Assembly: GCA_947179485.1 (NCBI GenBank)
Contig: OX359248.1
Location: 3,613,501 to 3,677,500, forward strand
Direction of reading: 5' to 3'
From: Allacma fusca
Taxonomy: Eukaryota; Arthropoda; Collembola; Symphypleona; Sminthuridae
Length of the DNA stretch: 64,000 nt
Below the pieces are notes generated by a model, which was not told the origin of the DNA, searched no databases, and saw only the letters and a program-made list of their open reading frames with translations. The position numbers and the translations under genes are program-made. Below, in pieces: positions 1 through 58,480 of the stretch; within the stretch, counting starts at the first letter, position 1; every line of letters begins with the position of its first letter.

Positions 1-833
1 AAGGAGCAAGTTGGCTTGAGATAGTTGTAAGATTTGCAAGGATTGAAGAAAAAGCTGATTTACAGTCAAAGTTTTTCCCCTCTCTTGAACTCGTCTTCAT
101 CTAACAATGCGGTTTATGTATCCTCATGAACTTTCCTACAAAAGCATCACTCCTCCAGGGTTGGCTCAATTTACTCTAAAAACCAAGTCCTTATTGTCAA
201 CCTGTCTTTACAATCTCTAAGATTTTCATACGTTTTTTTAAATAAGTTTTTATTACGCATAAAATTCTTTCTTAAAACCCATCAAAACGTGTGTACTAAA
301 AATAATTGTTCTTACAAAATACTTCACAATGTTAATGAAGCCTGGTAGCTTGAGCTGTTCCTTCTGGTTAGCCTTGAGTGAACCCCTAAAATGTTTTTGT
401 GTTCATGGACGTATTTAGTGAAACCATTTCTATAAATCTGTTCGCAGGTGGAAGAATTAGTAATTATTACAAAATTTTCAATAGACCTCCAACACTGGAG
501 TAACGACTGTACAGCAGTTTAGGGTAATGCCTATAAACTTCAGTGTCAGGGATTGAAATATTTACATTTAATTATACATGCATTAGAAGGGAGCGAGAAT
601 TGTGGAGAAAGTAAGGACAGAGTGGGTGAAAGTCCATTGGAAAATTGTGCGAAATTTAAAAAAGTTACGACAACGTAGAAAAATAAAATAGGATCTTTGG
701 GGATTGCTAGCTTTCCCCAACCCTTCTGCCCTGAAATGGTTCGATAAAAGGGACTTTACTAGGACCGGTTATATATCTATTTCTCCGGAGCGTTTACACT
801 AACTGTGTTCTTTGTTTTGGATTGTATTTTCAG
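1..833. other. 5' intronic sequence of the Dpr gene, no exon seen
   Basis: AT-rich sequence without a recognisable exon. The Dpr exon starting at 834 opens with the last two bases of a codon, so a preceding coding exon (normally carrying the signal peptide) must exist and is not seen here; it most likely lies left of the window. The end of the segment is a good splice acceptor: a T-rich tract ending in TTTTCAG at 827-833. Confidence 0.6.
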
Positions 834-1135
834 GTTCGGTTGGGAACTCTTCATTTTCCTCGACGACTGTGTCGGAAGAAGGAGTTACGACGAGGAAAAC
901 AACTTCTCCGCCGACGGGCTCTTACTTGGTCCAAGGGAAGAGCTATGAGAGCTTCAAAGGATCCAAAGATCGGTCAACGTCAACGGCTGAGAATTCATCT
1001 ATTTCCTCATCATTAAATCTCATGGATTCACCCACCAGTCCCTTCCTCACAGAGAACTCCACGGAACTCACGGCACAAATCCGGAGCAATGCTCTTATTC
1101 CATGTGTGGTTCGCAATTCCGGGGATGGAGTCACG
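834..1135 (+). CDS. dpr: Dpr-family protein, exon A: N-terminal linker and start of Ig domain 1 (partial gene, 5' end outside window)
   Basis: First visible coding exon of a defective proboscis extension response (Dpr) family gene. Dpr proteins are neuronal surface proteins with two Ig domains that bind DIP-family partners to specify synaptic pairing in arthropods. The exon opens after a TTTTCAG acceptor with two bases of a split codon (phase 1), then reads 100 codons and ends at a GTAAAT donor in phase 0. Residues 1-70 are a Ser/Thr-rich, low-conservation linker. From about residue 70 the Ig1 fold starts: a conserved-type N-glycosylation site (Asn74-Ser-Thr), then the B-strand cysteine Cys90 in ALIPCVVRN. 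Further Asn-X-Ser sites are at residues 4 and 53. The next exon continues exactly in frame at the family's VSWIR motif. No signal peptide is encoded here; the open frame running upstream of 834 is intron read-through. The Ig1 part is certain by alignment with the later exons; the linker is less constrained, so the acceptor is the least certain boundary. Confidence 0.85.
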
Positions 1136-2683
1136 GTAAATTCACTTTCCACAATATTTACCTTTCACTCCCTCTCCCCTCTCCTACCAACTATAAATAT
1201 ACTTTAACATGCACTTTGCACACTTTCAACTCACAATCCTTCCCTTCCCTGCGGCTACCAAATTCTAATGGATAAGGCTATCTATGTACAAGCCAGCCGG
1301 GTCCACATCAAAAATTAACTTCCAACTTTTTCCCTCCTACTAGGTCTCCACTCAACTCTCTCCCAAACTATGAACCCTTTCATTTACCAACATATGTACG
1401 TATTTCATAACTACAAAGATTAAAGAACTTAAGCGGTTCCTCCAGGAATCAATCTGTTCCTCTTATTTTTTGACCTAGAAGAAAGTAAGTTGGGAAGCGT
1501 TTTCAAACAAGGGGAAGTTCACGTCAGGTTCATATTTGAATGCCCTAATTTCTCAGAGCTTCGTGCAATAATGTCAAACTTGGGTTGTGGTAGGGCTAAT
1601 TTGTTTGATCACTCGAATTATCTGAGCTGACACCAACTGCATTGGAGGATTAGAATTGTAGGTTAGGTTAGTTCCGGGTAATTATTTCAAATTTTAATCC
1701 CTTATAATTAGAACCACACATTTCCAAGAAACGTTTCAACTTTCAATAATTTCTTGATTCGAAATCCAAAAGGTTGGAAGGCTGCTAAAGTAGGATTTGA
1801 GATATAAATTGTAAATATGATTTGCTCCTTTCCCTTTAGTGCTCAAAATTGCATTAGGTCATAATAAAATAGTAATTATGCGAAAAGCCTTGGAATCCAA
1901 AATGATGAGATAAAGGTTTATTCTTTTGTGTTGGGATTGATGAGAAAATACTAAGAATCTGAAAGTTTTTACAAAGGGTCGACGTGGAAAAAATCGTCTT
2001 TACTACAATTTGATTACATATGGAGCTTACATGAGTTTCAGTGGGAAAGAGAAAGTCGTCAGGAGCAACGTATTTATTTAAAGGCTTGTCTACAGCCCTA
2101 CACCTATTGAGACCAGGCAGGTATAAATAGAGAGGCGTATAGGGATAAATAAGCAAGAAATGAATTTTTGTATGGGATCTGGAGCAAAAGGACGGAGGAT
2201 GCAAATGCGAAGTGGTGCGATAAGCCTGGTGTTGTTAATAGAAACGCAAAAGAGTTTTCCGAATTTCGCTACCGGAGATGAAATGTTGAAATCAGAGGAA
2301 TTCCTTTCGGTTAGCAGTCATCCATTCCTGTCTTTGGAAATAATTCAATATATAAGTTTCTACTTTTATATGTGCTCAGGTCGGTTCCTATGGCCTTTTT
2401 TCCCTCCTTGGTTTAAATAGTAGGCAGGGAAAGAGGATCGAATTGAAGGCTACTTACACACATTTCCAGGGATAGAACGTACAGAAGGGTAAAAATGGCA
2501 TGGAGAAAGTATACACTAGAGCTAGAAGCTATTCCCTTGAAATCCACCAGGTGTAAAAACTCACGAGGCGGGAGATGAGAATCAAATGGGAACTTGCGAA
2601 TTCCTTCAATTTCTTCAACTATTTTCCACCGTGTCGACTTTGGAGTGTGAGTGGGAGAAAGGTGTGGGGAAACCGAAGAGCGA

Positions 2684-2716
2684 GAGAGTGTGTGTGTGTG
2701 TGTGGAGAGAGAGAGA
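2684..2716. repeat. compound GA/GT/GA microsatellite
   Basis: A GAGAGAG run, then an uninterrupted GT run of about 8 repeats, then a second GA run, seen directly in intron 1 of the Dpr gene. No function is implied. Confidence 0.9.
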
Positions 2717-4737
2717 AAAATCAAATCACCTCGTAACTTTGATTTACAATGCATGGACAACATGCAGAATAAAATATTATTTCTGCCAGCAATACATACC
2801 CCATGTCCCGTTCCATTCATTACCTGCACTGCAGTGTGAGAACCAACTTGAATATCATCATCGAGTATCTTCTCCGTCCTCACATTTTCTCTCGCTCCGT
2901 CTCTCCCCCTTAACTTTCTCCATGCATTTTTCCCTGTCTCTCTGTTTTTTTCTCTTTCTTTACACTATCCTATCTCCCACATTCTCTTCTCTTCCTGACT
3001 TCCTCCTTATTTTCAATAACCATACATGTGTGTATCCTCTCAGACATTTTGATACAAATAGAATAGTTTCTCCTGGAAATTTCTACATTGCCAAATCCAA
3101 TTTGAATAAGTTATGCAACCCATGGCTAAAATAATATTGTCATGGAATAACATTTTCACACATATACACCTCTCCGTTTCCCATCTCTCTCCATACTTAA
3201 CTTCAAATTGGATTTTCCTTGGAATTTTCTCCTTCCCGCAATACCCCCCTTCCAATTTTGGGCATGAGTTCATGGGAAATATTGGTAGCGGAAATTGTGC
3301 ACTGACCTAGAAGTATATGCGGGAACATTTTTGAAAATATTGCGCGGGAAATGTAAACCACAGCGCTCTTACACAGACAAAGTGTGTCCTCCGTTTTTAT
3401 ACAATCACCTAAATTACCCGAACGTAATCCTTTCCCGGTGGAGGAAAGAAAACGCTAATTCTTTTCAATTTCATTTTACAACACCAATAAATAAGACATC
3501 GAGAATATCTTTTTAGCATTCCCCAAAAACTATACACTTGTAAGTTGTTCATATATCTATACAAAGACTGCCATTAATTTTGTTAATTTTCGGTGCACCT
3601 TTTAAATTCAAAAACTACGTTTGTGTTGACCAACGGTGTATAATTTACTTACTATTTGCTTACAATTTTGTTACAATTGCAACGTGTATTTTAAAACACT
3701 TTCAAACTTATGTCGATATTTCATTAGCTTTGAGAAAAAAATGAGTTGGGACAAATTTATGGGGATTTTTGTAGCTAAAACAGCAGGCATACATATATGT
3801 AAAAAATCAAATGGGATATTTACATAAACATTTTGGGGGAGAAATGTTTTAAAATTCAATTCACATTTTGAATGAAAATATGTATAAAAGTGACGAAATT
3901 GGTAGCCAATTTTTCCAGCTTCAGATAAGCCCCACATGTTTGGAGATTTTCAATTCAGCTTAGGTAACGTAATGATGGGGGATTGAGTGGAGGGTGGAAT
4001 TCAAAATTTTCAAAAATGAAATAATGGGTAATGACATGAGGTGGCCGGGAGTCTCTCGTGAGGCTTGGAAGAGCAAAGGGACACTTGGAAAGTGGAGATT
4101 GGTGAGAGACGGGTGAGTTTCGTGGTGGCTGATTTCCCCCGTAGTTTATCATCCGCCTCCTGTGGTTTTATTCCTTATGTGAATTTTGTGACGTGTATCT
4201 ATCTGAAAATGACAAACAGGAGTCAATATCCGGAGGGACCCTTCCTCCAATTTCCTTTCTCCAAGACTCTAAAAATTCCAAGGAAGAGCGAAAGAGAGAA
4301 AAAAGGGAGCGAGCGAGAGATAGAAGCTACAAAATAAAAAAAATAAAAAAAAGGAGTAAACGGACTCAGTCAAGCAACCCCGAGTAAATGTACATAGTCC
4401 TATGTAGGAGCAGTGTAGGGATATCTGTGATGCAGAGAGCGATGAGAGATTCTGGACAAAAATGAGGAGCAGCTGATTTTTTCCTCGATATTGCAATATT
4501 ATTTGGTATAACCACCGTCCATGGTTTTGTTCCGTATACAAAACTCTACATTTTCTCCTTCCTTTATACTTTCCCTCATTCCTCTGCAGAGACCTATTTG
4601 TATTGGATTCCATCCCAACTCCATTCCAATCGCTCTCCTTTACTTTCTCTTCCTTGCTCTCCAATTTTTCCCCTTTCTTCATCTTTCCCTGTCTGTCGCC
4701 TTTAAGACCCGCATCCTTTTCCCTCTCACTTTCACTT

Positions 4738-4760
4738 TCTCTCTCTCTCTCTCTCTCTCT
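4738..4760. repeat. (CT)n microsatellite
   Basis: A perfect CT dinucleotide run of about 11-12 repeats inside a long pyrimidine-rich stretch (about 4550-4800), within intron 1. Confidence 0.9.
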
Positions 4761-5645
4761 ATCTCTTTATACTCTGACCACTTTTTCAGCCCTTTCTTTA
4801 AACAAGTCTTGCCTTTCTTTTATGTGTGATCGGCATTGCTTTCTCTGGGAAAAACAAGCTCGGGATAAAATACAAATATGAAAGTTGGAGGAGCGTAAGA
4901 GCAGAAGGAGAGTTGTGTAAGTCAAGACGTGTCCTTTTTGTTTGTTGGATGTCAGGACGGGATTGTGGGCATGGCTGCTCCTAACAAGTACATATTTAAG
5001 CTCCAGCTCAAGCCTGATCTGCAAAGGATATTATTAGTCTTGTAGTTCCGTTAGGAGTTCCAATTTGCTTAAGAACACCAATTTCCTCTCATGTTCAAGT
5101 ACAAGTTGCAGCTAAAAATTTTTAAGTGGGACTTCAAACATCCTTACGACTCTAGGCCTCACGATATATTTTTTTAAAGGTCAAATAGGTGCTTAAGATA
5201 GAGTTCGATATTCCAAGTAGGATCTCAAGCAGCAGTCTCACTGTAAGTTCAAGATCCACTTGAAGGGGCAGGTTTATCAGAAGTTCAAGTGAAAGTTGAG
5301 GAGAAAGTTTCATAAGAAGTTCCAATATTGGAGATACAATTGTCACACACGCATATTGGCCTGAATCTAAATATTATTTGAAATAAAATTAAAATCACAG
5401 TTCGGCACCTCTCCGAAATCAGAGTAACGGCGTGAGTCCTCACTTCCTTAGAGAAAGTTACTTTCCATCCGCAAGTCCGAATAGGATTTTAAGGAAGCTA
5501 GGAATACGGAAGACTGACCTGACCGGAGCTACACATTAGGCATGCAAGGAAAGAAACAAGATCGTAGACACTTGAGGATAGGAAATATGCTGGGATATAG
5601 TGTACAAGAGGAAGATGCTGGAAATTGGACTTATTCAGACCAAGA

Positions 5646-5649
<4 letters not shown>

Positions 5650-5676
<27 letters not shown>

Positions 5677-5682
5677 CGAGAA
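5650..5682. repeat. (GA)n microsatellite, interrupted
   Basis: A GA-rich run with one AC and one GC interruption, near the end of intron 1. Confidence 0.85.
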
Positions 5683-6600
5683 AGATGTGTAAAGAAAGGG
5701 AGAGAAAAAAAAATTGGGAAACTCATAAATTCGCAGGTTGTCGGGGAAAAAATCCAATAGAGACGGGCGAGACGGCAATGCTGAACACATGTCACCAGCG
5801 TATGTATTCTCTGTGGGATGACTCGGCGGCTGTCACAGTATATTTCAACACTAGAGCTTCGACAATTTCCCTATATTTGATTTCGACAATCTCTGACTAG
5901 ATTGATATTCCATCGTACTTTTATTTTTATTGTCAGGGAATCATTCCTTTCTTCCTTTCCCCATCTGTCCACATTTCATCAAAACAGTCCCGCGCTTTCA
6001 TTCCAACAACCCTCCGTCTGCGTAAGCACATTAACTTTATTACTCTGAGCCTCTGCAGGGTGTCACAAAGCCCTTTTTTCCTTGTCTGGTCACTACAAGC
6101 GGATATGGAAATAGAGACGACGGTCTTATTTTGTTCAAAATTTTAAAGACTGTCCCTCAAATCTTTGCTGCTTACAGTGTGGCTAAAATTCTCAATGCAA
6201 GGATTGGAATAATGTTAGCATTCAATAATAATTACCCAAGGAAAAATAACTCGAAGGATAATCTGAAGGAAAATTAATATTTTACAAGTTAGCCCGTTGT
6301 ATAGATAACAGAGACCAGAGACCTTCTGAATCACCCTGGATGTCCCAACCTCTTTTCCTTACATATGTACATATAAGAAAACACACATTCATAACTAAAC
6401 ATATGAATTTATTCTAAAGTAAATTCCTTCCCTTTATGCAATTATTTGTTCAAGTACTTTCTAAATCCAAAAATATTACTTTATAAAATACCTGTGCTAT
6501 AGTCCATTGCAATCTGGTTGGTGCTAACGGATCCCATACAAAATGTATAAAGTAATATATGTGTGATTAATATAATTATGTGTACTGTTTGAATATCCAG

Positions 6601-6702
6601 GTCTCTTGGATACGCCGGAAGGACTACCATCTACTAACCGTGGGTCTGCAAACCTACAGTAGTGATGATCGATTTCAAGCTATCCATGCACAGAGTCCAG
6701 AG
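6601..6702 (+). CDS. dpr: Dpr-family protein, exon B: middle of Ig domain 1
   Basis: A 102-base exon (34 codons, phase 0 at both ends) between AATATCCAG and the strong donor GAG/GTGAGT. It encodes residues 101-134, starting VSWIRRKDYHLLTVG, with the core Ig tryptophan Trp103 and the family's 'T-Y-S-S-D-x-R-F-x-A' strand. This is the most diagnostic Dpr segment: 'VSWIR-x-x-D-x-H-x-LTVG' followed by a Thr-Tyr and an Arg-Phe is shared by nearly all Dpr proteins. In known Dpr proteins Ig1 is the domain that contacts DIP partners. The RRKDYHLLTVG wording resembles dpr12 from memory. Both boundaries keep the frame with the neighbouring exons. Confidence 0.97.
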
Positions 6703-9700
6703 GTGAGTGAAAGTTTCCGAACTTATACTTTCCCTTAAAATTTTTATTCGGGTATGGGATGGCGCCAAAGACGAGTCTTTTGAAAATAGAGGATCATTTC
6801 CCCAGCAAAACATTAGGCTCTAATCCCAAACCTAAGCACCCGGCCAAATTTGTGTACAAAGAAAGCCCGACTGCTAAATTATAGTTTCCTTATTCCCAAA
6901 CTAGGAGGTTAATTGGAAAATTGTATTAACTTTGGTAAAATGTACGGATCCAATAGTAAATAAATAATAATTACAAAACGTATTAAAATATATTTCAAAT
7001 TTTATACGGCAATTGTGAGGACTCAATGATTTCTCTGTCGAAATACGCATGTAACTTTAAAATAATGACAATTGTTTTTTGTCTCTGCGCATATGTTAAT
7101 TACTGGACTTGGCCACAAATTTAAAACCTCCAAATGCAGGAACAATGTAATTACTCAAATAGGATTATCCAGCATGGGAGTAAATAATGTCCCAAGTTAT
7201 GCATTCAGAGGGAAGGGTACATTGGGGAATGGTATGAATAAATAAACACTAAAATATCAGAAACGTGAAAGGACGACACATGAAGTGACAAAACATAAAA
7301 ACAACACATTGTGCTCCCGCCTACGCCTGTAATAAAATTGATCGCTTGAGTGAATGTTATAATTCCTGCAGATTCCTAAAAATAGACCCATGCTAATGAA
7401 TTGTCTACGGAGGAATTTCCCTTGAAGTTTGTGTTTTTAATTTAGTAAACCTTCCTAGGAAATAAGGGGCTTCGTGACTTTAGACCTTGGAAGGGGCTTC
7501 CATGTATAGTGAAAGTGCGTTTTAAGGTTGGGGTGGTTGAAAGAATGGAAGGAGGCTCTTTTTCTCCTGAGATTCCCTCTGTGAATCTGTGTTGATGTTA
7601 TACAAGTTCTAAAAGACTAATATTTATTCCTTTATTTGCAAAAGGTTTTAACGCTCCTGTTGAGCATAGACAAAGGGCCAGGGAGGAGGGAGCGTGAGGG
7701 GAAATTAATGGAAAATTAAAATTCGAGACCCCCGTGGTGAAAGTAAATTGGCAAGTATCCACAACAACCTTGAATGTATTCCCAGGAGTGTTTGTGTGAG
7801 GGCTTGTCAATATTTTTGTTTTGAAATAATTACAACCTGTGACTCCGCAATCACTCAAGCAGGAGCGGATTGCTTGTAGGAACCAGTGGGATAGAAATTA
7901 GGAAGGACGGGAAAGAGTCGGTTTGCTCAGGCTCCGGGTATAATTGTATCCTGTGGGTGCAAATTTAAATGAGGGAGTAATTATTGTAAGAGGGTTATTG
8001 TGGGTCCGTCCCTCTCTCTCACGATAAAAGAGACAGTTAAGAAACATAAAACAATCCACTTCATTCCCATGTTAACAAGTTTGTAGAGAGACTGGGAATT
8101 TAATTATGGGTTGGGAGGGAGGGCGGAGTGGAGGCAGAGAGAACCTTGGGCTGTGCATATCTCACTGAGAAAGGAGTAATTATGTCGCATAGTTCTCAGA
8201 GGCTGAGGTTGGTTTGACGAGAGGAGGATTGAGAATACAAGAGTGTGTATATATTTTCTCCGAATGTTTAATTGGTCAGGGTCCGGGACCAAACGGAGAC
8301 AGGAGAGAGTCACTGGAGGGAAATATTATAACTGTCTCCCACTTCCCCCATATTGTCACTGTTTGTCTCTCCTTCTGTAAATACTTATCGGGCTGGGCTC
8401 GGAATATCAAGGAGAGAGTATACACAAACTTTCTCCCTGGCTCTTTCCCTCTCCCTCTCAAGATTTCCTCTTCCCGAGATTTCCTTATATAAATTTAGAA
8501 CGTGGGGTGTGAGGCCCGAGCCCGTATAATGTATGGCCCCCTTGGAACGTAAATAGAATTGAGTTGGAAATTTATTTTCCTCATTTTTTAGGCTATTTTG
8601 TTAGGCAGTTTTTGATAATTTCATCACTTGTAGATCCTAAATAATTTTTTAAAATTGCATTCACAGTTTTGGAGTAAGTATCAAAGGCAGCAAAATTTTG
8701 TTAAATTTTTTATTTATATTGTTGAAAATTTGGCTGATTATGTTTCATATGGTGTCGTGAATGTTTGAAAAATACTTGTTTTTTCAATTTTAAAAGGGCT
8801 TTTTGCGTCATTAGCCATTTAGATCCACTTTCAGAATAATAAGTAGAAATTTGACAGGTAATTCAGATTTACAAAGTACTGTTAGAAAAATACAAATTAC
8901 GTGGAAGGATTTTTTTAGTCCAGGTGCTTGTTTTCAGAACACGGGGAAGGGATATTTGATGGGGCCTAGTATATACATATGTACATATACTAGGTTGCAC
9001 TTTGGTTCCAGCATGTATCCAATGTTCTCTATCTCGTTTGTCTCAAAATGTTCCTTGAGGGAAGAAAGTGTGTAAATTAAGTGTGACAGACAGGGGAATT
9101 AGCATAGTGAATTCTGACAAGGACTGTAGCTTGTTCTTGCCCCCATGTTTTATGCACGTAAGTGGAAAGACCTGCACTTTCCCAGGCTGAGGTATAACAC
9201 AGACCGGGGCATGTCTCAGTTGGAGAGTCAACAGGGCAAAAAGTTAAGTTGTGCCGAAAATTTGGTTGGTCTCCTTGTGTAACCCTAAAAGAACCTCACG
9301 TCGACTTCCATGTGCTCCGTCTCGAATTCCTAATTAGGCTTTTACTTTCTTGATGAATCTTATGCTTGGCTGAGGCTCCGTTCTCCGTACTAAATATACA
9401 TGGGTTCGCTCTCCCCAATATATCTCCTTCCCTTGATCTGGAAAGCATACGCTAGATTTGAAAGAGACACCTTAATAAATATATGGTGGCCGCCGGAGAG
9501 AAAATAATACAGGGACAGCCCATCCTCCATGCACACTATATCCTTCATACGTATTATGGGCAACCTCAAGGGAAAGGTTTTAGCGTTTCACTTATGTTGA
9601 GAGCCTATGAGGTAACAGGGATAAACGTTAGTCTATGCATGCGACGGAAAGCGTAGCGTGAAAGTACAAAAAGAAGGACGTTAGAAAATTAATTATCAAT

Positions 9701-9901
9701 TCTAGATTAAATATGTACGGTCAGGTTGAAGAAATGTATTTACTCAAGTATGCAAACATAGGTTTCATGTTTAGAAAAAACATGGCTGGAATAAATGGAG
9801 AAATTACCACACAATGTGCGGACATCATTGTGGAACAACAATATAGACAAAAATAGTAACGAAACAAGTACAAGGCATGAAAGTTTTGCTGAAATTAAAG
9901 A

Positions 9902-9995
9902 TGAAAGTACAAGTAAAAGTAGAGGTGAAAGTACAAGTGAAAGTACAGGTGAAAGTACAAGTGAAAGTACAAGTGAAAGTACAAGTGAAAGTACC
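9902..9995 (+). repeat. 12 bp minisatellite, unit TGAAAGTACAAG
   Basis: Almost eight consecutive 12-base units, starting at 9902, 9914, 9926, 9938, 9950, 9962, 9974 and 9986. Most are identical to TGAAAGTACAAG. Unit 2 (TAAAAGTAGAGG) is the most diverged and the last unit ends in TACC. Because 12 is a multiple of 3, the array reads as a Ser-Glu-Ser-Thr repeat in one frame, which explains the apparent 105-codon open frame (9795-10112); I do not regard it as a gene. The reverse complement of this unit forms the larger array at 35300-35632. Confidence 0.95.
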
Positions 9996-10134
9996 ACATT
10001 ACGAGAATATTTATTAAAAAAGTATAACGAAATTATAATTATTACTTGGCAGTTTACATTGCAACACCCCGATTTATTTTTTAAGGAATTTAAATGTGAC
10101 GTACGGCTGTAATCTACTATTATTTAATCGAGTC

Positions 10135-10440
10135 CGCAATTAAAGAACTGAACAGCAGGCGTAGTCCAGCACTGAATGTACTCAACTACCATCGTTGAGG
10201 AACGGCTTCAAAGCCCAACGCCCCTGCTGCCGCGGAGGTGAGAGTATTGAGAGAGATAGAAGTTGGGTTCTGGTGGATGTGCGGCTGGAAACCGAGCGCA
10301 CTAACGCTCATTCAGCCAAGTGAGTGGAGTTACGGTTGCCTCGGTTCTACTGGATCTGTGCTTATCTGACAACACAAAGATATACTTCGTCGGTTCGTCG
10401 TAGGGTATAATCTCCTGTTACCTTGCTCTCTCACCTCCAT
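10135..10440. other. GC-richer island with nested inverted repeats, possible mobile-element or structured-RNA remnant
   Basis: This stretch is visibly richer in G+C (CCCCTGCTGCCGCGGAGG, GTGCGGCTGG) than the surrounding AT-rich intron and contains no array words. It has a hairpin GAGCG-CACTAA-CGCTC near 10294-10309, nested inside an AACCGAG...CTCGGTT pairing that closes near 10345, and a TTCGTCGGTTCGTCG direct repeat near 10390. No long open frame and no clear pol III box pair were found. It could be a SINE or LTR fragment, or a non-coding RNA; I cannot tell which. Confidence 0.4.
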
Positions 10441-10849
10441 AGATTAAGTAAAATTAAGCTAATTGGTTGTTAAACAAATATATCTGGCATTGTTTGCCGC
10501 CTCCCTGGTTGGCTCACCCTGAAAATAATCATGTATAAAGAACTTTAATTTTAAAAAGAGTTTTAAATTACAAGAAATTATAACTGTAGAGTAAATTTGT
10601 ATTTACAGACCTCACAGAGACTTCAAGATGGGAAGTCCGAGATAAAAAGGAGCCGAGACTTTATTTTAAATAAATTAACGGACGCTCATTTGAATTGAAT
10701 TATAGCAAATCATGAAAACAGACAGTTTTGCCTTACTTCCCCTGCCTTGTAAAACCCTTCACAGTTGTCCGCACAGAAAATTCAGGTCATGGTTCCATTC
10801 CTTAGAACCCAACCTATCCCCCTGGAATATACAAAACGCAGCACACACA

Positions 10850-11660
10850 CAACAGTACCGGAGAAAGTTTATACTGAAACATTTAATAAATCTAGTGTAG
10901 AAACCTCAGTACATGAACGAAAAATTTCGGAACTCCCAATAGAAACGCCAGGTGAAAGTATAGCACAGGCATAGTAGAGCAAAAAGCACACATATCGTAA
11001 AAGATGAAGACCACCTGCGAAAGTAGGAGAAAGCAAAGGGAAATTTAGCTCTTGCAGCAAAAAGGAAACCACAGGTGCTAGCAGCATATAGAGCTATATA
11101 ACTAGAAAATGCCAACCGAATAGCAGTATCTATATATCCAAAATGCAGGAAAATTTCGAGCCATTTACGTTGCAACAATAATATATCATTTTACGACAGA
11201 AAATTACATTTTTTATTTTCCCAGAAAAAAAACATACGTTCGTATGTAGGAGACTTAATTTGTGCTTATAAGAATCCCCTGCATTTAATTTTATACTTTT
11301 GAATAAATAGATACTAAGAGTACAACGTTAGAGTAAACTGGTTTATACATTATGTAGAGACGCCCACACATAGATCATATCATAATAGAAAACACGAGAG
11401 AGTAAAACACTATAAATGAAAGTCAAAGAGGGAACGTAGAGACGTGTATCCAGGATAGGAACAGAGTATGCAGAGGAGAAAAAGTAGAATTACGTAAGAT
11501 GCAATTTAAAAGAGGCATAGGAGAAAGCATGTAAGAAAGATCAGATGAAAGAGCAGAAGAGAAAGTGCATTAGAAGCAGGACAGGAAAAATTCCATGATG
11601 TATAGGAGAAAGTATGGAGAACCCAAAAAGAACAGCATAGGTGAAAGTATATCAAAAGTG
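10850..11660 (+). repeat. degenerate 10-12 bp repeat patch related to G(A/T)GAAAGT
   Basis: Many loosely spaced copies of GGAGAAAG(T/C) and GGTGAAAGT occur, for example at 10860, 11026, 11520 and 11605 plus GGTGAAAGTAT near 10950 and 11640. They are separated by roughly 12-base multiples of diverged sequence. This looks like an old, decayed version of the array at 9902-9995. Short open frames through it are by-products of the repeat. Confidence 0.5.
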
Positions 11661-19401: not shown

Positions 19402-19990
19402 TTGAACTTGAATATCGAGTTTGCACTTGAACTTGAATATCGAGTTTGCCCTTGAACTTGAACATCGAGTTTGCACTTGAATATCGAGTTTGCACTAGCA
19501 CTTGAAGATCGAGTTTGCACTTGCACTTGAAGAGCGATTTTGCACTTGAACTTGAAGATCGAGTTTGCACTTGCACTTGAAGATCGAGTTTGCACTTGCA
19601 CTTGAAGATCGATTTTGCACTTGAGCTTGAATATCAAGTTTGCGCTTGAACCTGAATATCGAGTTTGCACTTGAACTTGAATATCGAGTTTGCGCTTGAA
19701 CTTGAATATCGAGTTTGCGCTTGAACCTGAATAACGAGCTTGCACTTGTGTATCGAGCTTGCACTTGAGTATCGAGCTTAAACTTGAACTTGAGGGTCGA
19801 GCTTAAACTTGAACTTGAGTATCGAGCTTAAACTTGAACTTGAGTATCGAGCTTGCACTTGAACTTGATGTCAAGTTTGCACTTGAATATGACGCTTAAA
19901 CTTGAACTTGAGTATCGAGCTTGTACTTGAGCTTGAATATGGAGCTTGCAATTGAACTTGAATATTGAGCTTACACTTGAACTTAGTTTG
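19402..19990 (-). repeat. 25 bp minisatellite (CTTGAA-type)
   Basis: A long array with the basic unit TTGCACTTGAACTTGAATAT plus CGAGT (25 bases). Several units are shortened or lengthened by one 6-base (ACTTGA) step. Toward the right end the unit changes to a GAGCTTAAACTTGAACTTGAGTATC form. Unit length 25 is not a multiple of 3, so three units give a 25-residue periodic reading and all minus-strand frames stay open; the overlapping ORFs here are repeat artefacts. Confidence 0.93.
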
Positions 19991-23290: not shown

Positions 23291-23399
23291 GATTGGACTT
23301 TGAAAATCAAATACGTCCAGCCCAGAGATGCAGGCGTCTACGAGTGTCAAGTGTCCACTCATCCTCCCTCGAGTATTTTTGTCAAACTCAATGTCGTGG
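23291..23399 (+). CDS. dpr: Dpr-family protein, exon C: C-terminal half of Ig domain 1
   Basis: A 109-base exon between CCCTCCAG and the donor GTAAGT, entering in phase 0 and leaving in phase 1. It encodes residues 135-170, beginning DWTLKIKY. It contains the classic Ig F-strand motif D-A-G-V-Y-E-C (Cys153, the partner of Cys90), followed by QVSTHPPSSIF and the G strand ending LNVV. 'DWTL-x-I-K-x...RDAG-x-YECQVST-x-PP' is a near-invariant Dpr signature. The frame is open well before and after the exon (23219-23713), but splice signals and homology fix the ends. The Glu171 codon is split across the next intron. Confidence 0.97.
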
Positions 23400-23590: not shown

Positions 23591-23709
23591 AAGCAAGGGC
23601 AGAGATTGCGGGAGGACCTGACAAATATATCAAAACAGGCTCAAGCCTTCGACTCATCTGTGAGCTCAAACAAAGTACTGAAGAACCTGACTATGTCTTC
23701 TGGTATCAG
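23591..23709 (+). CDS. dpr: Dpr-family protein, exon D: first half of Ig domain 2
   Basis: A 119-base exon. The first two bases complete Glu171, then 39 codons (residues 172-210) run to a phase 0 donor GTAAAT. The reading starts ARAEIAGGPDKY and continues through SLRLICELK to FWYQ, giving the Ig2 B-strand Cys194 and core Trp208. The inter-domain 'VVEARAEI' and 'F-W-Y' motifs match Dpr proteins; the exact VVEARAEI wording is what I recall for dpr12. The correct frame differs from the longest open frame that overlaps this exon, which is intron read-through from exon C. Confidence 0.95.
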
Positions 23710-23869: not shown

Positions 23870-24035
23870 GGTTTGCAAATGATAAACTACGACCCAATCC
23901 GTCAGATAGAAGTGACTCACGATAGATATACTAGCACACTAGTTCTTCATAATGTGCAAAAGAGTGATTCCGGCAATTACAGTTGCGTTCCGTCAAAATC
24001 CATTCCCGCCAGTATTTTTGTCCACATAATTAACG
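23870..24035 (+). CDS. dpr: Dpr-family protein, exon E: second half of Ig domain 2
   Basis: A 166-base exon with 55 codons (residues 211-265) plus one base, entering in phase 0 and leaving in phase 1 at GTAAGG. It begins GLQMINYD, the family's 'M-I-N-Y-D' motif after the Ig2 tryptophan. It continues through STLVLHNVQ to the F-strand motif D-S-G-N-Y-S-C (Cys249, partner of Cys194) and a G strand ending IFVHIIN. An N-glycosylation site overlaps it at Asn246-Tyr-Ser. It lacks the glycine-rich 'RRGG' turn after M-I-N-Y-D that several Drosophila paralogues have, a small divergence. The final base pairs with either exon F (giving Gly-Glu-Asn) or the candidate cassette exon at 24658. Confidence 0.95.
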
Positions 24036-26609: not shown

Positions 26610-26790
26610 ATCTTACTTTCTCCAACTTGCTCCAACTTTCTCCAACTTTCACTTACTTGCTCAAACACCTACCTACTTTCTCCAACTTTCCCCTACTTTC
26701 TTCAACAGCTACGTATGTGCTTTCCCTAGTCTTTCTCCTACTTTCAACAACAGCTACTAGCTTTCTCCAACTTAATTCCTAAAACTTTCA
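26610..26790 (-). repeat. degenerate 10-12 bp array, CTTTCTCCAA-type
   Basis: Closely packed ACTTTCTCCA and ACTTTCACTTA words with irregular spacing, in a clearly decayed array. On the minus strand the core is GGAGAAAGT/GTGAAAGT, as in the arrays at 9.9, 35.3, 45.0 and 53.1 kb. Confidence 0.75.
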
Positions 26791-29522: not shown

Positions 29523-29526
29523 CACA

Positions 29527-35299: not shown

Positions 35300-35632
35300 A
35301 CTTTCACTTGTACTTTCACTTGAACTTTCACTTGTACTTTCACTTGAACTTTCACTTGTACTTTCACTTGTACCTTCACTTGTACCTTCACTTGTACTTT
35401 CACTTGAATCTTCATTTGTACTTTCACTTGAATCTTCATTTGTACTTTCATTTGAATCTTCATTTGTACTTTCACCGGTTCTTTCACTTGTACTTTCACT
35501 TGAACTTTCACTTGAACTTTCACTTGTACTTTCACTTGAACTTTAACCTATACTTTCACTTGTACTTTCACTTGAACCTTCACTTGTACTTTCACTTGAG
35601 TCTTCACTTGAACCTTCACTTGCACGTTAACT
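35300..35632 (-). repeat. large 12 bp minisatellite, unit CACTTGTACTTT (reverse complement of the 9.9 kb array)
   Basis: About 27 units of 12 bases. The commonest forms are CACTTGTACTTT and CACTTGAACTTT, with CATTTGTACTTT and CACTTGAATCTT variants alternating as 24-base pairs in the centre. The unit is the reverse complement of the AAAGTACAAGTG unit at 9902-9995. All frames stay open through it, which produces repetitive open frames on both strands (Lys-Val-Gln-Val on minus; His-Leu-Tyr-Phe and Leu-Val-Leu-Ser types on plus). None is a gene. Confidence 0.96.
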
Positions 35633-35879
35633 TGAACATTTACTTGAACTCTAATTTTTGTTTGACAACATAAATTGTTGAAATGATTTATTTCTCTCAT
35701 GGTATTTATTTGCATTCTTACTCCACTTTAAAAATTAATATTGACTTTCACCGTGCTGTCCTTGTAATAGTTTTTGCATATTTCTAAAATCTGATATTCA
35801 CATTCACACATGCTGTGACTCAAGGATTTTTCCTGTCCTAGCATTGGTTCTATAAATTTTCTTTTTTGTCATATATTTT

Positions 35880-41494: not shown

Positions 41495-41624
41495 CAGTTT
41501 ATTTTGAAATTTGGGAAAAATCTTTGAGGAGGGCGATCCTTGTGGGGTGATCATTTTGACAGTTTATTTTGAAATTTTTGAAAAATATTTTAGGAGGGCG
41601 ATCCTTGTAGCGTGACATAGTTTA
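41495..41624 (+). repeat. two-copy 65 bp tandem duplication
   Basis: CAGTTTATTTTGAAATTT begins at 41495 and again at 41560, and AGGAGGGCGATCCTTGT recurs at the same offset. The copies differ at roughly ten positions, so the duplication is not very recent. Confidence 0.85.
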
Positions 41625-44600: not shown

Positions 44601-44997
44601 TCTCATCACTTTCACTTTCAAAAAGTTACCTACTTTCTCTCTCCTTCCGCTCACTCTCTCGTCAAAGCGTTCTCTCTGAAATGGTTCCCATAACAAGTAT
44701 ACTCAGACAAACTTTCTCTCTATCTATCTGTTTGTAGCTAATTTGGAATTTAAAAACGAGTGGGGAAAGGCAGGGAAGTGTTTAGAGGAATTCAATCTAT
44801 TAGATTGATGGACTTGAAGCTCTTGACTAATTAAATTACTGGTCATTCAAGTTCATGAGAAAGGCACTCTTCTCACTTGCCCATCTCGTCAATCTGGTTT
44901 GGCTTGAACAGCTTGTTTGCTTTCCCCATCCTTCCACTCTTCTATACCTTTCTCTCAGTAGCAATGTTTCTCTCTAACTACACTAGTACTTTCTCTA

Positions 44998-45250
44998 GTT
45001 TACTTTCCCCTATACTTTCTCCTATACCTTATCATATACTTTCTCCTATACCTTATCTTATACTTTCTCCTATACCTTATCTTATATTTTCTCCTATACC
45101 TTCTCTTATACTTTCTCTTATACTTTCTCTTATACTTTCTCTTATACTTTCTCTTATACTTTCTCTTATACTTTCTCTTATATCTTCTCCTATACCTTCT
45201 CCTATGCCTTCTCTTATACTTTCTCTTATTCTTTCCCGTATACTTTGCCT
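44998..45250 (-). repeat. 12 bp minisatellite, unit TACTTTCTCTTA
   Basis: A dense array of 12-base units. About six perfect TACTTTCTCTTA copies lie at roughly 45109-45180. To the left, 24-base pairs TACTTTCTCC-TATACCTTATCT alternate. Flanks decay into similar words as far as about 45360. On the minus strand the core is GAGAAAGTATAA, one step from the GTGAAAGTACAA core at 9.9 and 35.3 kb. The Lys-Tyr-Lys-Arg-type open frame on the minus strand is an artefact. Confidence 0.95.
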
Positions 45251-45839: not shown

Positions 45840-45841
45840 TA

Positions 45842-51393: not shown

Positions 51394-51630
51394 TTCAGGT
51401 CAATGTCATGTCAACGTCAGGTCATGGTTCAGGTCCAGTATCCTCACAGTTCAAATCAATGTCAGGTCCAGTATCGTCACAGTTCAGGTCAATGTCATGT
51501 CAACGTCAGGTCCAGTATCTTCACAGTTCAGGTCAATGTCATGTTAATGTCAGGTCATGGTTCAGGCCAATGTCATGTCAATGTCAGGTCATGGTTCAGG
51601 TCCAGTATCTTCACAGTTCAGGTCAAATGT
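51394..51630 (+). repeat. modular minisatellite of GTCAGGTC / GTCCAGTATC modules
   Basis: Three short modules recur in varied order: TCAGGTCAATGTCATGTCAA, GTCAGGTCATGGTTCAGG and CAGGTCCAGTATCTTCACAG. The variable order points to repeated unequal exchange among modules rather than simple unit expansion. Overlapping open frames are repeat artefacts. Confidence 0.9.
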
Positions 51631-51639
51631 CGACAACGT

Positions 51640-52080
51640 TTAGGTCCAAATTCATATCAGATGTCATTTAAGTCCAGATTAAAGTTCAGATAAAATTTCG
51701 TCAAAGTTTGGATCCAATTTCGTCAAAGTTTGGATCCAATTTCGTCAAAACTCGGGTTAAATTTCGTTATTCGGATCGAAATTTAGGTCAAATGTCAAAG
51801 TACGGATCAAAGTTCAAGTCAAATGTCGTAAAAGTTCAGGTCAAATTTAAATAAAGTTCAGGTCAAAGCTGAATAAAGTTCGGTTCGAATTTAAATAAAG
51901 TTCGGGTCGAATTTAAATAAAGTTCAGGTCAAATTTGAATAAAGTTCGGGTCAAATTTGAATAAGGTTCAGGTCAAAGTTGAATAAAGTTCGGGTCAAGT
52001 GTCGTTAAAATGCCGGTTTTGCGTCCTTACATTACAAGTCAAATTGAAAGGAGATCAGGTCCAATGTCGTTTAAAAGTTA
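51640..52080 (+). repeat. 22 bp tandem array, AAAGTTCAGGTCAAATTTGA-type
   Basis: Units of about 22 bases (AAAGTTCAGGTCAAATTTGA plus AT) are regular at about 51835-52010 and more decayed to either side. They continue directly from the modular array on the left. Confidence 0.9.
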
Positions 52081-53130
52081 AGGTCAAGTATGACTAATGT
52101 TCTGGCCACGTTTGATTAAGTAGTCTGAATAATGTGTAGTTCAAACGTCATTCAATTCCTGGTCAATTAATAGAATCCTGAATTTAGAATTGACTGCAAT
52201 ATTTCGTCCTCAGCGTTAAAGTCTCAGTCTCAGTCGAAGTTCGGAATTAGACTTGGATTGACTCTCACAGAGCTCTGGTGTGAATTAAGGTCCGTACTCT
52301 ATAATTCACATGTTAGAATATTGGGATTGTAGGTGAATGTCTATAGCTATAATTATAAAGTGTGTGAATGTTGAACAAAGGGGGAAGTGCATTTGTGTCT
52401 GTTGAAGATACAAAAGGCGAGGAAATGAAACTATTGCAAAGTTCCTCTCCTCTTTTCCCTCGTCCGTGGTGAAACAGATGGAAAGCATGTGCTCAGGTTA
52501 TGCTCATTCAGAGTACGCCGCGTGTTCAATTAGCTCAACTTTCTCCTTTACGAATCTCTCTTTAACCGCATTATCATCACAGACCATGTACAACAAGTCT
52601 TCTCAAAAAGGCATATCATTTTTTCATGATCACTCTCGCAAAACTCTTTTTATCCTCAACTTTTCCAAGGACTCTTTCCCTTGGAATAACTCCTCTTATC
52701 AAATCGTACACATACAGTCGACTCCTCTCTTTGACAACTCTCCCAACAACATCTCCCGCTCACAAGCAAGGATTTTCTCATGTTCCCTCGAGATTTCAAA
52801 ATTTTAGTAGAAACTCATTTCCTTACACCTTACACAATGTCAATCCCTGCTCGCAGAAAATCTTCCATCAGGAAAACGCTTCAACGATTTTTCAAAATTG
52901 GCGCCAAATCTTCCTCATTTATTAAATCTAAACCAAAAGATATTAAACTCTTCTTTTTTATTTTAATCGTGGTTTCATTAATTTAAATTTTAAGGATTAA
53001 GCACACAGTAGACATAAACAGTTCATTGAAATATTTTGTATTAGTTAAAAATTTAGCTGGAAATTATCCTCCAGCTATAGAGGGATTTTTGTAAATAAAT
53101 TTTAGAAATAAATGTTAACTTTCCCCTTGA

Positions 53131-53193
53131 CTTTCACCGACTTTCACTAACTTTCACCAATTTCACCAACTTTCACCCACTTTCACCAACTTT
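53131..53193 (-). repeat. 10 bp array, unit CTTTCACCAA
   Basis: Six to seven units of CTTTCACCAA (one 9-base unit) start at 53131. The minus-strand core GGTGAAAG is the same as in the 12 bp arrays. Confidence 0.93.
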
Positions 53194-54120
53194 TCCCACA
53201 CGAGGTTCCTGAAGCTGACTCCCTTTTAGCATAATGGAAAAGAAAAACACATTTGACAGGGAACTATTGACAATGTTTTGACTGTTTGATGAACAATATG
53301 TAAATATCCGTCAATATAAGGGTTTGATGCTTGGAAAGTCAATGGAATTATTTTGTTTGAGTCTCTTGTGAATTGGAAATGGCGGTAATTTTGAATCGAT
53401 TCCCTTTATTCAAATCTCTCATGTATTTCTCATCCGTATGTATACTTGACATTGTTATAGGTAGAAATGTAAGGGAGAAGTGGAGGTAGAAAAAAATGGG
53501 TGAATTTTTTTTGTACCCTGTGGGAAAATACACTGTAGTGTCGTTATAACGTACACCCTTTTGAGAGCATTTCTTCTTTGGAAGCATTAATTGCAAGGAC
53601 CATTTACCATAGCGTATTTTTTTCGTTTGATAAGAGGAGCACGCCTTTCGGGAAGAGTGAGACTTTGGAGATGCTGTTGCAGAGAGGATGCAGTGTGTTT
53701 TGTTTTTTGTGTGTAGTGTCTGGCTGGAGACAAGACACTGGTGGTAAAATTGGATTACATGAGAGGAGGAGGTGTGGACGTCGTTATAGAAAACTGAATG
53801 TAAAATAATAATGTTGACGTTGGCGTGTAGACTTTTGGTTTTTGTGGAGCGTGGATAAAGTGAGTGTTCGTAAAAGAGGGAGAGGGGAGGAGGAGTTGCG
53901 AGAAGATGTAAAGAGGCTGGAGCGGAGGATAGAGGGAATTTTTTGGCATGAATTTAAGTTTGGAGTGGTTGCTACTCTGAATGCCTGGGCAGATGAAAGA
54001 AATGGTTGTGAGGGGAAGGATGAAATAGAGCAGAAGAAGCTACGTGTGTGGGGATGGGACGATGTAGTGGGGAAATAATGTGAGGATGAGAATGGAGGAT
54101 AAAGAATGATAGGAAAAGCA

Positions 54121-54140
54121 AGAGAGAGAGAGAGAGAGAG
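54121..54140. repeat. (AG)n microsatellite
   Basis: A perfect AG run of 10 repeats followed by GGAGAGGGAG. Confidence 0.95.
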
Positions 54141-54439
54141 GGAGAGGGAGACCAAAAAGAAAAGGAATCGAAAGTTTCCAGTGAGAAAAAAAGAGTGAGG
54201 TTGAGGTGGAGAAAATGTCATCTGTCTCCAGACTCATCTGTCACTTTTCTGAAGCAGCTTGTCAACTCAAACACTCTCTGTCTCTATCCCGCTCTTTCCA
54301 AAAGGCATCTGCACCGTCATCATTCCCAATCTTCCGCACTTCAACACAGCTCAACAACTTACAATACAATATCTGCAATTCCACTTGAGAGATTCGTCAA
54401 CGAACGAACATTTGAACGTGACCTAGTCTCAAAGGAGAT

Positions 54440-55280
54440 TCGCACTTGACCTTGACCTCAACTCAAAGATTTTCCAAGTTGAACTTGGCTCAGCTAAAAT
54501 ATCACCCCCCAGGAATCTACCTTAACTTGAACTTCCCTTGGACTTGACTTTAACTTGACATCTTAAAGTTTGACCTTAACTTGACCTCCGACTTCAAAGT
54601 TTACCTTTACCTTAAAAATGATCTTAACTTGACCTCCGACTTCAAAGTTTACCTTTACCTTAAAAATGATCTTAACTTGACCTCCGACTTCAAAGTTTAC
54701 CTTTACCTTAAAAATGATCTTAACTTAGCTTGACCTCCGACCCCAAAGTTCACCTTAACCTTAAAATTGACCTTAACTTGACCCCTGATCCCACAGTTCA
54801 CCTTAACATTGACCTCTGACGTCAGTGTTTGTCTCCGATCTCAAAATACACTTTAACTTAACCTCCGAACTCAAAGTTCAACTTGACCTTAACTTGACCT
54901 CTGACCCAAAAGTTCATCTTAACCTTAAAATTGACCTTAACTTGACCTCTGACCCCAAAGTTTATATTAACCTTAAAATTGACCTTAACTTCACCTCTGA
55001 CCCCAAAGTTCATCTTAACCTTAAAATTGACCTTAACTTCACCTCTGACCCCAAAGTTCACCTTAACCTTAAAATTAACGTTTAACATCAAAGTTCAACT
55101 CCGACTTCAAAGTTCAACTTAACTTGACCTCCGTTCCAAAGTTCAACTTGACCTTAAAATTTAAATTACCTTGACTTCTGACCTCAAATTTGAACATAAC
55201 TAGACTTCTGACCATAACTTGAACCATGCTCAAACTTAAACATACCTCGATATGAACTTATCTGCACTTGAACTTGATAT
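54440..55280 (-). repeat. 48 bp minisatellite rich in TTGACCT / TTAACTTGACC
   Basis: Two well-kept blocks of 48-base units. One holds three near-identical units from about 54578 to 54725 (TTGACCTCCGACTTCAAAGT plus TTACCTTTACC and TTAAAAATGATCTTAAC). The second, 54890-55080, holds TTGACCTCTGACCCCAAAGT units. Decayed CTTGACC-type sequence continues to about 55770. Unit length is divisible by 3, giving repetitive open frames on both strands that I do not annotate. Confidence 0.94.
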
Positions 55281-55799
55281 TAAATAAAACCAAATGAACA
55301 TCCTCTATTTGAAATTTATTTGAACCCCTATTCCAGTCTTACCCCGAATATAGAAAAATATGCACAATCAAACTTGACCCCAGAATGATCAAAGTTAACA
55401 TTTAAACTTGATTTAACCTGAAACGAGACCACTTGAACTTGAACGTTACGCACACAAAATTGAACCCCCCGAACTTGAACTGTAATGGAGCTTCATCAAA
55501 TCTTGAAATATTTGATTCTGAACTTAACCTAAAGTTTCGTTTCGTTAGCGTCATGTCAACTCCAACTTTCCTCAGGTGGAATTAGACTGGAAGAATTGAC
55601 CTCAACTTGACCCAAACGTCTCCTTCCCTTATCAATGTAATCCCTAGCTGGCCCAAGATTGACCTACTTTCGAAGAGTACTTATAATTGTACAGCTGTTC
55701 CCATTTAGTCCAACTATGGCCCAAACTTAAATTACAATTTGACTTCTCAAGGCCAACTTGACCCGAACTTGACCTTTTACAAAATGATCAAACACTCAA

Positions 55800-58480
55800 T
55801 TTGGATAGATACCTAAAATTGCTCAATATTCGAAACTAAAAAAACTTTCCTCCCGACAAAACTCAAAGGTGTATTTCTCATTGCCCCGAACTTTACATGG
55901 ACCCTATAGTTCCTAAGTGCACTTAGGGACACGTGACCCCTACTTGACCTTTGTAATCCAATACAAAATGAGAAACTCGAAAGACAAGTAAATATAAAAT
56001 AATTCAAAAATCGAAACTGTTTCTAAACTTGACTTACTACTTGACTCTAAATCCCTCAAGTATAACTTGAACTGGAGCGCAGCACTGGAGTCTTGGTCCA
56101 GGTCCACTGTCGTAGTAGAACTATAAATGCTTGTCTCTTCACTATCTTGCGGTTGACTGAGTCCCTTGGACTTGTGCAGAGACATTCCATGAGAGTGTAT
56201 TTTTGGTGGAGACCGTCTCGACAGAATATGAACTTTATTTTTTATCCCCGAATTTTTCACTGAGCTTAACTCCTTTTCAGGGAAGGCGCGTGAGGTAGAT
56301 AAGCGTAAGATTGCATAGCAAAGCAGAGCCACTACTGTCCTCAAGAGTTCACTTCCCTTCCAACAGCAGTGCTAGTGACAGGACCTTATCATCTCTTCAG
56401 GCCTCATATGCATATGTAAAGTGTGCCATCCCTATGGCAGCACCCTTCCGAGTCCCACTCTTTGACTTCCAATAATTTTACGAAACTATGCCCTCACCCA
56501 AGGAAAAATATCATTATCGTAAGAGTCACTGTACAAAAGGAATTTTAAGGGGAAAACATTCCCAGATTTGAGCCTCCTGAGTAAACCTCCTCAGGAATTT
56601 AACTTACAACTGTGGGAAATTTCCAAGTTGTTATGCCCCCTCATCCCATACAATTACTAGCAAATGAGTCATCAAGTAAATCTTTTCCAGTTCCACTACT
56701 AAATAAAACTACATTTGAACAATTTAGCGGCTGCGGTTGTGGGCACTAAAATTTCCGTAGCGTAATAAAAGTATTCGAATAAATTAAACAGAACCAATCT
56801 CCCAGCAACACTCTCTCTCTCTCTCTGCTTTAAGAATTGCTCCTTATTACTCAATTTTGGATTATACAGGGAAATGATGTGGGAACTTTCTCCGACTTTC
56901 CTTCTTAAACCAGGGTTTGGAATTTGGCGCCTTTTGATTCTAGTTTTCCCACTCAACCAGACTTTTCTACAACCATTGTTTGCTTTTTCGTCCCTCAACC
57001 TACATTTTTGAGCTGGGACCATTTTTCTCATCTGAACTGACGGAATGTATCTATTTTCCTATTTAGTGTAAATACACATGTATATTTTTATATATAAATA
57101 CTGGGAAGTTATTGGAGGGAAAATCCCTGGACCAGGGACCATGTGTGTGTGTAGAAAGTTATAAAATGTAGGGATGGCTGGACAGGAAGGAGTTGGTAAA
57201 AAATGGGAGTAAAAATTGATTCGGGACCGATTGGATTTTTTCCAGCGATTTCCTTTGACTTTCTTTGAACGTGTCATCCCTGTTGACTGGAGCCACACAT
57301 GGACAGAAAATAAAAAGAGCATTCCTTCAAAAAACTGGAGACAGGGAAGGAACTTGAACACCCACGTCAGCTTGTTTCTTGGATGAGTTCCCTTCTGATT
57401 GTTGTGAGCATTACATTATTGTTATTACTTGGAAGAGCCTCAATGGAATATTTCCTCCCAACTCTCCACTTCTTTGGAACAGGGTGTTGAGCACATATTA
57501 CATTTTCCCTGACGGCTTCATCTCATTTCCATGTATCTGTTGTTGGGAGAGAGGAAGGAGAACAAGCCATTTCTGTCAGGATGAGATCCTTCAAAACCAA
57601 TCTTCCACGTTCCTCTCTCACTTCCTTCTCAAAACACTGCAGAGTCAGTCAAGTCCCTTTTTCTCTCTCTCTCTCTCTCCATCCCTCAAAACTATATCTG
57701 CTTAGTCAACTTTACTCAAACACCAGGGCGAATTCCCGAACATTATCTTAACCCAAAGGAAAATCAGCATAGCGTATATATTTATGTGAAGGGGACAAAA
57801 CAAGTATTATTTTCCATTCATATTTAATTATTGATTTTTTAATTATTGGGGGAGCTGGGATGGCAGGTCAACGTTGGGGCATAGCAGTCCAGAAAAATGT
57901 CTGACCCAATTTGAGTGCATATGTTTAATTTGGAGAGCAAGGCACATTACAAGGATCTGATGATAGGAATGGGATTACATTTCGATGGAAGGAACATGGG
58001 AAGAAAGAGACTTTGAGATTTATTAAATGTGGACGGAAAAGCTACTCGAGTTTCCCCTTCGCAACTCCCTTCCTTGTGTCCTTTTCCTTTCAAGTAGGAG
58101 GTCCATCTGTTATTCCTTTATGGTAAGAGAATACACACGTTTGTAGGCCTTTTGCACGACTGGCGGAATATTCTCCTTGCAGAACAAGGACTTATTAGCA
58201 AAGCAGACATGTCATTTCGCACACCACAGCCGTTAAAAGGACACTTAGTTTCAGCGAACAATTCTTGGGAAAATTTAAAGTTAGTATGCTGAGCTTAGCG
58301 CGTTTCAGTTAGCTCGTTTGAAAATACCCAGTCAAATAGAAGTACAGGGAAGGAGTTGGGAATTATTCAAGTTTTGGATGGGTTTAAGTTCTGGGTTGTG
58401 GTATGTTTTTTAGGTGGTTTGTTTTGGACACGTGATGGGGTACTTTGATTGTTTTTTGGGGTACAATTGATTTTATATTT
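55800..58480. other. intergenic sequence, no supported gene
   Basis: No gene can be supported. A minus-strand open frame at 55940-56344 has a hydrophobic start but opens with TTG, not ATG. CT runs lie near 56812-56826 and 57661-57679. Confidence 0.5.

Follow-up and report, generated by a model that had tools for sequence, protein, structure and literature searches.

Comparable systems

Clusters of sites for a single transcription factor (homotypic clusters) are enhancer-sized, extending over hundreds of bases to a few kilobases (kb), and the introns of C. elegans contain periodic A/T clusters (PATCs), which form a dispersed non-coding signature through genes of a class. In the springtail Allacma fusca, a stretch of 64,000 nucleotides on chromosome 4 (contig C12, positions 3,613,501-3,677,500; hereafter the window) is rich in an 8-bp word, GGAGAAAG/CTTTCTCC, and contains the right third of a domain, about 168 kb long, that is filled with this word and its variants. 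Like a homotypic cluster, the domain gathers numerous copies of a single site around one gene, but it is much longer than such clusters are. It resembles the PATCs in being a dispersed non-coding signature; however, the sequence is another one, the distances between pairs of copies have no clear period, and no tie to germline expression is known.

Two further systems recall the motif itself. The site of Blimp-1/PRDM1 has AG[T/C] in front of a GAAAG[T/C] core. According to one study, Blimp-1 and IRF1 both recognize the GAAAGT/C core, and the core of the IRF-E site is either GAAAGT/C or GAAACT/C (PMC4497732). In the C. elegans pairing centers, the zinc-finger proteins ZIM-1/2/3 and HIM-8 bind 12-base motifs that are concentrated at one end of every chromosome and have a meiotic role (PMC9071541). 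The A. fusca domain is like these centers in that a short motif is concentrated over a large region, and a zinc-finger reader, which is described for the worm, may exist here as well. It differs in that the clusters are gene-scale and scattered, that one motif is common to five chromosomes, and that immunoglobulin (Ig) loci lie near the clusters in excess.

We put at roughly 0.48 the probability that gene-scale domains of this kind are carpeted with candidate sites of a sequence-specific DNA-binding protein and form a distributed cis-regulatory or chromatin platform. The titles and abstract openings found in literature searches, with most subscription journals outside their scope, included no such domain.

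The motif and its domain

The window holds 75 copies of the word (33 on the plus strand, 42 on the minus strand). A Markov model of order 1 predicts 3.5, and models of orders 3, 4, 5, and 6 predict 8.0, 19.5, 38.5, and 66, respectively; models of high order come close to the observed number because they absorb the word itself. By order-3 z-score, the word ranks second among all 8-mers of the window. After masking of the arrays found by Tandem Repeats Finder (TRF; 4,684 bases of the window), 67 copies are left and the word ranks first (order 2). The initial annotation of the window had described the word as dispersed throughout, far above a chance expectation of 1-2 copies. All 32 of the positions that it listed (18 plus, 14 minus) carry the exact word and the excess stands, but a fair expectation is about 8 copies (order 3), and the copies do not spread over the whole window: all 75 lie within positions 1-57,000 and none in the final 7 kb. 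The same annotation had named two ways in which the word might turn out to be trivial, namely, by being no commoner than a higher-order Markov model predicts or by lying entirely in decayed tandem arrays; the word exceeds the order-3 model of the window, and 67 of its 75 copies are outside arrays.

More generally, the word is one version, and the most frequent one, of a degenerate motif of 9 bp, [GA]G[A/T/G]GAAAG[T/C], or RGDGAAAGY. The frequency of this motif was determined in a domain sample of 105 kb (window positions 1-57,000 and nine further pieces; 98,398 bases after array masking) and in a background sample of 206.8 kb of chromosome 4 (28 pieces and the last 4 kb of the window; 199,072 bases after masking). 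Outside TRF arrays, RGDGAAAGY occurs 263 times in the 98.4 kb of the domain (about 2.7 copies per kb) and 43 times in the 199 kb of background, a 12.2-fold ratio that is flattered by the sorting of pieces into domain and background once the density profile was known. The narrower form GGAGAAAGY is enriched 22-fold (97 vs 9). Plain composition is rejected as the cause, as eight permuted motifs of the same composition stay at 0.9-2.4-fold. The position-by-position profile of the excess reads G/A, G, A/T/G (no C), G, A, A, A, G, T/C/G (little A), followed by a weak A. Most substitutions in the core drop toward background, with A at position 8 as an exception (15 vs 7), and variation is chiefly at positions 1, 3, and 9. 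The related G(T)GAAAGT form, which had been noticed as common, is so: GTGAAAGT is found 65 times in the domain and 8 times in a background twice as large (15-fold).

This motif shares the core GAAAG[T/C] with the site of Blimp-1/PRDM1. The form AGTGAAAGT is strongly enriched (34 vs 2), as is AG[TC]GAAAG[TC] in general (42 vs 6, 13-fold), while AGCGAAAGT is found in neither sample (0 vs 0). However, the preferred and commonest form is GGAGAAAGT, and position 3 shows no enrichment of C; for these reasons, a Blimp-1-like specificity may be taken as a lead only and not as an identification. Sites of the IRF type are unlikely because GAAAC[T/C] is flat (128 vs 240, only 1.1-fold).

The domain extends from about C12:3,502,000 to 3,670,400. 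On the left, samples of chromosome 4 are at background from 1.0 to 3.493 megabases (Mb), including 11 pieces at 3.33-3.493 Mb; the motif is dense from about 3.500 Mb, with the first copies at about 3.502 Mb. On the right, copies thin out over window positions 50-57 kb, and the chromosome is low again at 3.678-40 Mb, apart from a weak shoulder at 3.678-3.688 Mb, where 10 kb hold 8 RGDGAAAGY, and a slightly raised piece at 5.0 Mb. The GC content of the domain is 0.381, that of the surroundings 0.374. Genome-wide (392,743,791 bases in 91 contigs), GGAGAAAGT has 13,079 copies, or 33/Mb, and the window has 45 copies in 64 kb, or 703/Mb, which is about twentyfold denser. The reversed word occurs 2 times in the window and 3,132 times in the genome.

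The domain holds a dpr-type Ig gene, a neuronal cell-surface gene of which four exons were found, together covering two Ig domains; the domain would correspond to the extent of this gene. The assignment draws on one exon (23,291-23,399 of the window) that matches six solved chains, all of them dpr (dpr2, 1, 10, 6, 4, 11; E 1.5e-7 to 6.2e-6), and on three exons recognized by eye. An RNA signal of the dpr gene is an unlikely role for the word, since its copies lie on both strands (33 and 42). The window has no Rfam family at gathering scores and no tRNA.

Flanks and spacing of the copies

The copies could have arisen without any protein or selection. Short arrays of the GAAAG type would often arise in long purine-rich introns, decay, and leave single words behind. 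Several arrays of the domain do have motif-bearing units, the flanks of the copies are purine-rich, neighboring copies share a strand in 157 of 253 cases and are closer than Poisson below 200 bp, and just 36 of the 263 copies are more than 300 bp from any other. The strand sharing and close spacing suggest some local copying or a cooperative arrangement. They do not extend to phasing, which the initial annotation had proposed to examine: apart from the same-strand clustering below about 200 bp, no period is apparent.

The flanks, however, argue against neutral amplification for most copies. Among copies outside TRF arrays, 60 same-strand pairs with a spacing of 33-100 bp have an identity of 34.5% over 2 x 12 bp of flank, compared with 30.5% in the 96 pairs separated by 100-300 bp and 27.5% in the 5,158 pairs that are more than 1 kb apart; even in the nearest class, only 5% of pairs reach 62.5%. 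Such near-random flanks imply that most copies are not recognizable tandem duplicates; a decayed minisatellite, in which flanks should be shared, is therefore rejected outside TRF arrays, and the listed arrays (Table 1) are true arrays. The 36 isolated copies have no excess of 9-mers shared between their two flanks (2, random mean 3.3), and the 75 lined-up copies have no longer repeat around the word, only purine richness. The arrays of the domain differ in their units and spacers and retain the core in common, although within arrays the spacer columns are about as constant as the motif columns, so that the arrays alone say nothing about selection. The low enrichment of the permuted motifs and the restriction of most variation to three positions, if with a raised A at position 8, also speak against amplification, which we regard as unlikely, if still a serious competitor. 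Together, the position-specific preferences, the near-random flanks, and the bounded region suggest a protein site that is under regional selection.

Clusters elsewhere and neighboring gene families

Motif clusters are present elsewhere in the genome. The motif-pair pattern GTGAAAGTN{5,30}GGAGAAAGY has 302 matches, and the same pattern reversed has 6. Among the 100 matches listed first, 6 are dispersed over C1, and C5 (X1), C8 (chromosome 2), and C9 (X2) carry clusters that each span tens to a few hundred kb; C10 is taken as chromosome 3 and C1 as chromosome 1 by elimination only. Three complete lists (27, 39, and 77 hits), merged within 20 kb and with the window's domain excluded, gave 99 motif-pair places. 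The window's domain is itself a single pair hit in the complete lists, which suggests that single places may mark domains. Per Mb, X2 has 0.71 places (34 of the 99), chromosome 4 has 0.41, X1 has 0.27, chromosome 3 has 0.23, chromosome 2 has 0.12, and chromosome 1 has 0.02 (2 of the 99). Pieces of X2 at 24.60-25.12 Mb contain 18 RGDGAAAGY in 18 kb.

The association of these places with gene families was assessed by circular shifts within each chromosome, the window's domain again being excluded. Of 16 dpr-like exons, 8 have a place at 100 kb or less (shift mean 1.07, P 0.0004; matches with E below 1e-3, eight weaker ones having been removed), and so have 9 of 44 I-set loci (shift mean 2.20, P 0.0002), the P values here and below being nominal across six gene sets and the dpr and I-set sets overlapping. 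Chromosome 4 alone has 17 dpr-like exons when weak matches are included; 4 of them have a place at 10 kb or less (mean 0.13, P 5e-5) and 8 at 100 kb or less (P 0.00125). Voltage-gated channels are borderline: 4 of their 35 loci have a place no more than 50 kb away (mean 1.19, P 0.038), and a limit of 100 kb gives 5 of 35 (P 0.062).

Several findings weigh against a regulatory platform at such genes, beginning with the nominal P values and overlapping sets just mentioned. Most of the 99 places are not near any tested family. At the 100-kb limit, there is no excess at ligand-gated channels, where 1 of 40 loci has a place (mean 1.91), or at G-protein-coupled receptor (GPCR) loci, where 5 of 94 do (mean 3.33; the 94 were merged from 115 rows, all of them with open frames below 900 residues and on one of the six large contigs). 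Nor is there one at homeobox loci, where 0 of 82 have a place with the window's domain excluded (mean 4.55, P of so few 0.009), so neuronal genes as a class are not supported. The stretch of X2 that was sampled around the motif-rich C9:24.70-25.01 Mb is patchy, 15 of the 18 RGDGAAAGY falling in 4 of 12 pieces. The purine richness of the flanks belongs here as well. Finally, with the motif masked, GAGAGAG (3-fold), GGTCAAG (4-fold), and AAATTTA (2.4-fold) are still raised in the domain, which means that more than one word differs. GAGA words, the initial annotation having proposed a test for GAGA-like factor binding, are a separate excess of about 3-fold, and GGTCAAG, raised some 4-fold outside arrays, is perhaps a second motif.

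An avoidance of homeobox loci is not established, as it hinges on the exclusion of the window's domain and on the 100-kb limit. With that domain counted, 1 of 82 loci has a place (P 0.06), and at 150 kb the deficit is gone (4 of 82, mean 6.51). Among the matches listed, the homeobox locus C5:9,788,985 has a motif-pair hit on either side, one 78 kb and the other 124 kb off. C1, taken as the largest chromosome, has very few homeobox matches (3 of 100) and I-set matches (2 of 149).

A proposed regulatory platform and its rivals

If the domain is a platform, a protein would coat it by way of numerous weak and redundant sites, both intronic and flanking, and would set a single regulatory or chromatin state over the whole locus; individual sites could be gained and lost while their density stays. 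Binding of the motif by a protein, its upkeep by selection, and an effect on gene regulation are each part of this proposal. Judging from the sequence of the motif, its reader would most plausibly be one DNA-binding protein of the C2H2 zinc-finger type. In this respect the initial annotation, which had found no standard feature type for the interspersed word and had considered zinc-finger or GAGA-like binding, fits a motif that resembles a protein site; its regional, gene-scale, and degenerate 9-bp nature lay beyond that description.

The broader question is how a long gene with very large introns comes to be marked as a single regulatory unit. Were the platform real, motif density alone would draw the limits of the locus and the unit could be read from sequence; this springtail, with its chromosome-scale assembly and highly unusual reproductive cycle, would then allow direct tests of site density, turnover, and the reader protein. 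A wider version, which we find rather doubtful, is that of a locus-wide system in this springtail lineage, in which one protein would recognize entire gene domains, each 100-300 kb long, from how densely a 9-bp word occurs in them and not from discrete enhancers. There would be roughly 80 such domains (about 14 Mb, an arithmetic estimate which assumes that all excess copies occur at the density of the window's domain), many of them at cell-surface recognition genes, and the identity of a domain would be its word density, kept by the turnover of weak sites.

Apart from the neutral amplification discussed above, three explanations compete with a gene-regulatory platform. The domains could organize chromosomes, for example as sites of meiotic pairing or of attachment to which zinc-finger proteins bind. 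Their architecture is like that of the C. elegans pairing centers (PMC9071541), and their density differs by chromosome, with X2 and chromosome 1 as extremes. However, the places are scattered along the chromosomes and enrichment at one end was not found, chromosome 1 has just 2 of the 99 places, one motif serves five chromosomes, and the places are near Ig loci beyond expectation. A pairing center as such is rejected on the first two grounds, and we give chromosome organization in general only a slim chance.

Since X2 is the densest chromosome, the domains could also be marks for the elimination of X chromosomes or of the paternal genome. Males of A. fusca lose copies of X1 and X2 in the early embryo and transmit one haplotype, according to two studies (PMC10427803; PMC9630974), and X2 holds about a third of the places. 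X1, however, is below an autosome, chromosome 4, and places also occur on autosomes 2 and 3, which makes this role quite improbable. Relics of a transposable element or a foreign insertion carrying the word are hardly credible: the region is bounded and some copies on chromosome 1 are part of a repeated element, but the 75 copies have nothing in common beyond about 10 bp except purine richness, their flanks are near random, the GC content is close to that of the surroundings, and an ordinary multi-exon dpr-type gene lies inside. The repeated element on C1 shows itself in pairs of GGAGAAAGT that recur exactly 1,159 bp apart (2378984/2380143, 3386994/3388153, 6596980/6598139, and 8206776/8207935).

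Other features of the window and its surroundings

The coordinates of the motif copies, the putative dpr-type exons, and the motif-bearing arrays are collected in Table 1.

Table 1. Features in the window, numbered from its first nucleotide.
Feature	Position	Strand	Basis or remark
GGAGAAAG/CTTTCTCC copies, right-hand third of motif domain	604..56893	both	75 copies (33 +, 42 -)
Beyond right edge	57000..64000		no GGAGAAAG; two RGDGAAAGY (61704, 61762)
dpr-type exon, first Ig domain, VSWIRRKDYHLLTVG...	6601..6702	+	AG before, GT after; family by eye
dpr-type exon, end of first Ig domain, DWTLKIKYVQPRDAGVYECQV...	23291..23399	+	solved dpr2, E 1.5e-7; boundaries from sequence
Probable dpr-type exon, second Ig domain, first half	about 23605..23709	+	by eye; acceptor uncertain
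Probable dpr-type exon, second Ig domain, ...SGNYSCVPSKSIPASIFVHIING	23870..24035	+	by eye
12-bp tandem array, GTGAAAGTACAA type	9890..9994	+	TRF
Irregular array and cluster of GGAGAAAGT units	26612..26768	-	TRF periods 10, 20, 40 over 26612-26712
12-bp array, unit with AGTGAAAGT	35300..35650	-	tandem-repeat scan
12-bp array, units with AGAGAAAGT or GGAGAAAGT	44987..45246	-	tandem-repeat scan
10-bp array, unit with GGTGAAAGT	53130..53193	-	tandem-repeat scan

Other arrays, at 19402-19984, 51394-51998, and 54571-55157, have several unit lengths and common words that are GTTCAAGT-, GGTCAAGT- or AGGTCA-like. Directly past the right edge of the domain are big tandem arrays with units of 45, 22, and 13/26 bp (58797-59290, 60553-61257, and 62691-62915), whose TRF consensus units are without the motif core. 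To the right of the domain, two homeobox matches lie at C12:3,713,630 and 3,761,902, at distances of 43 and 92 kb from its last copy of the motif. Many matches to 7tm_1, the GPCR domain, are in open frames of about 1,000-3,650 residues on several chromosomes and have similar scores (for example C1:60637776, C8:30284273, C5:49203799, and C10:65802025), as if a high-copy element or a very large protein family carried the seven-helix domain.

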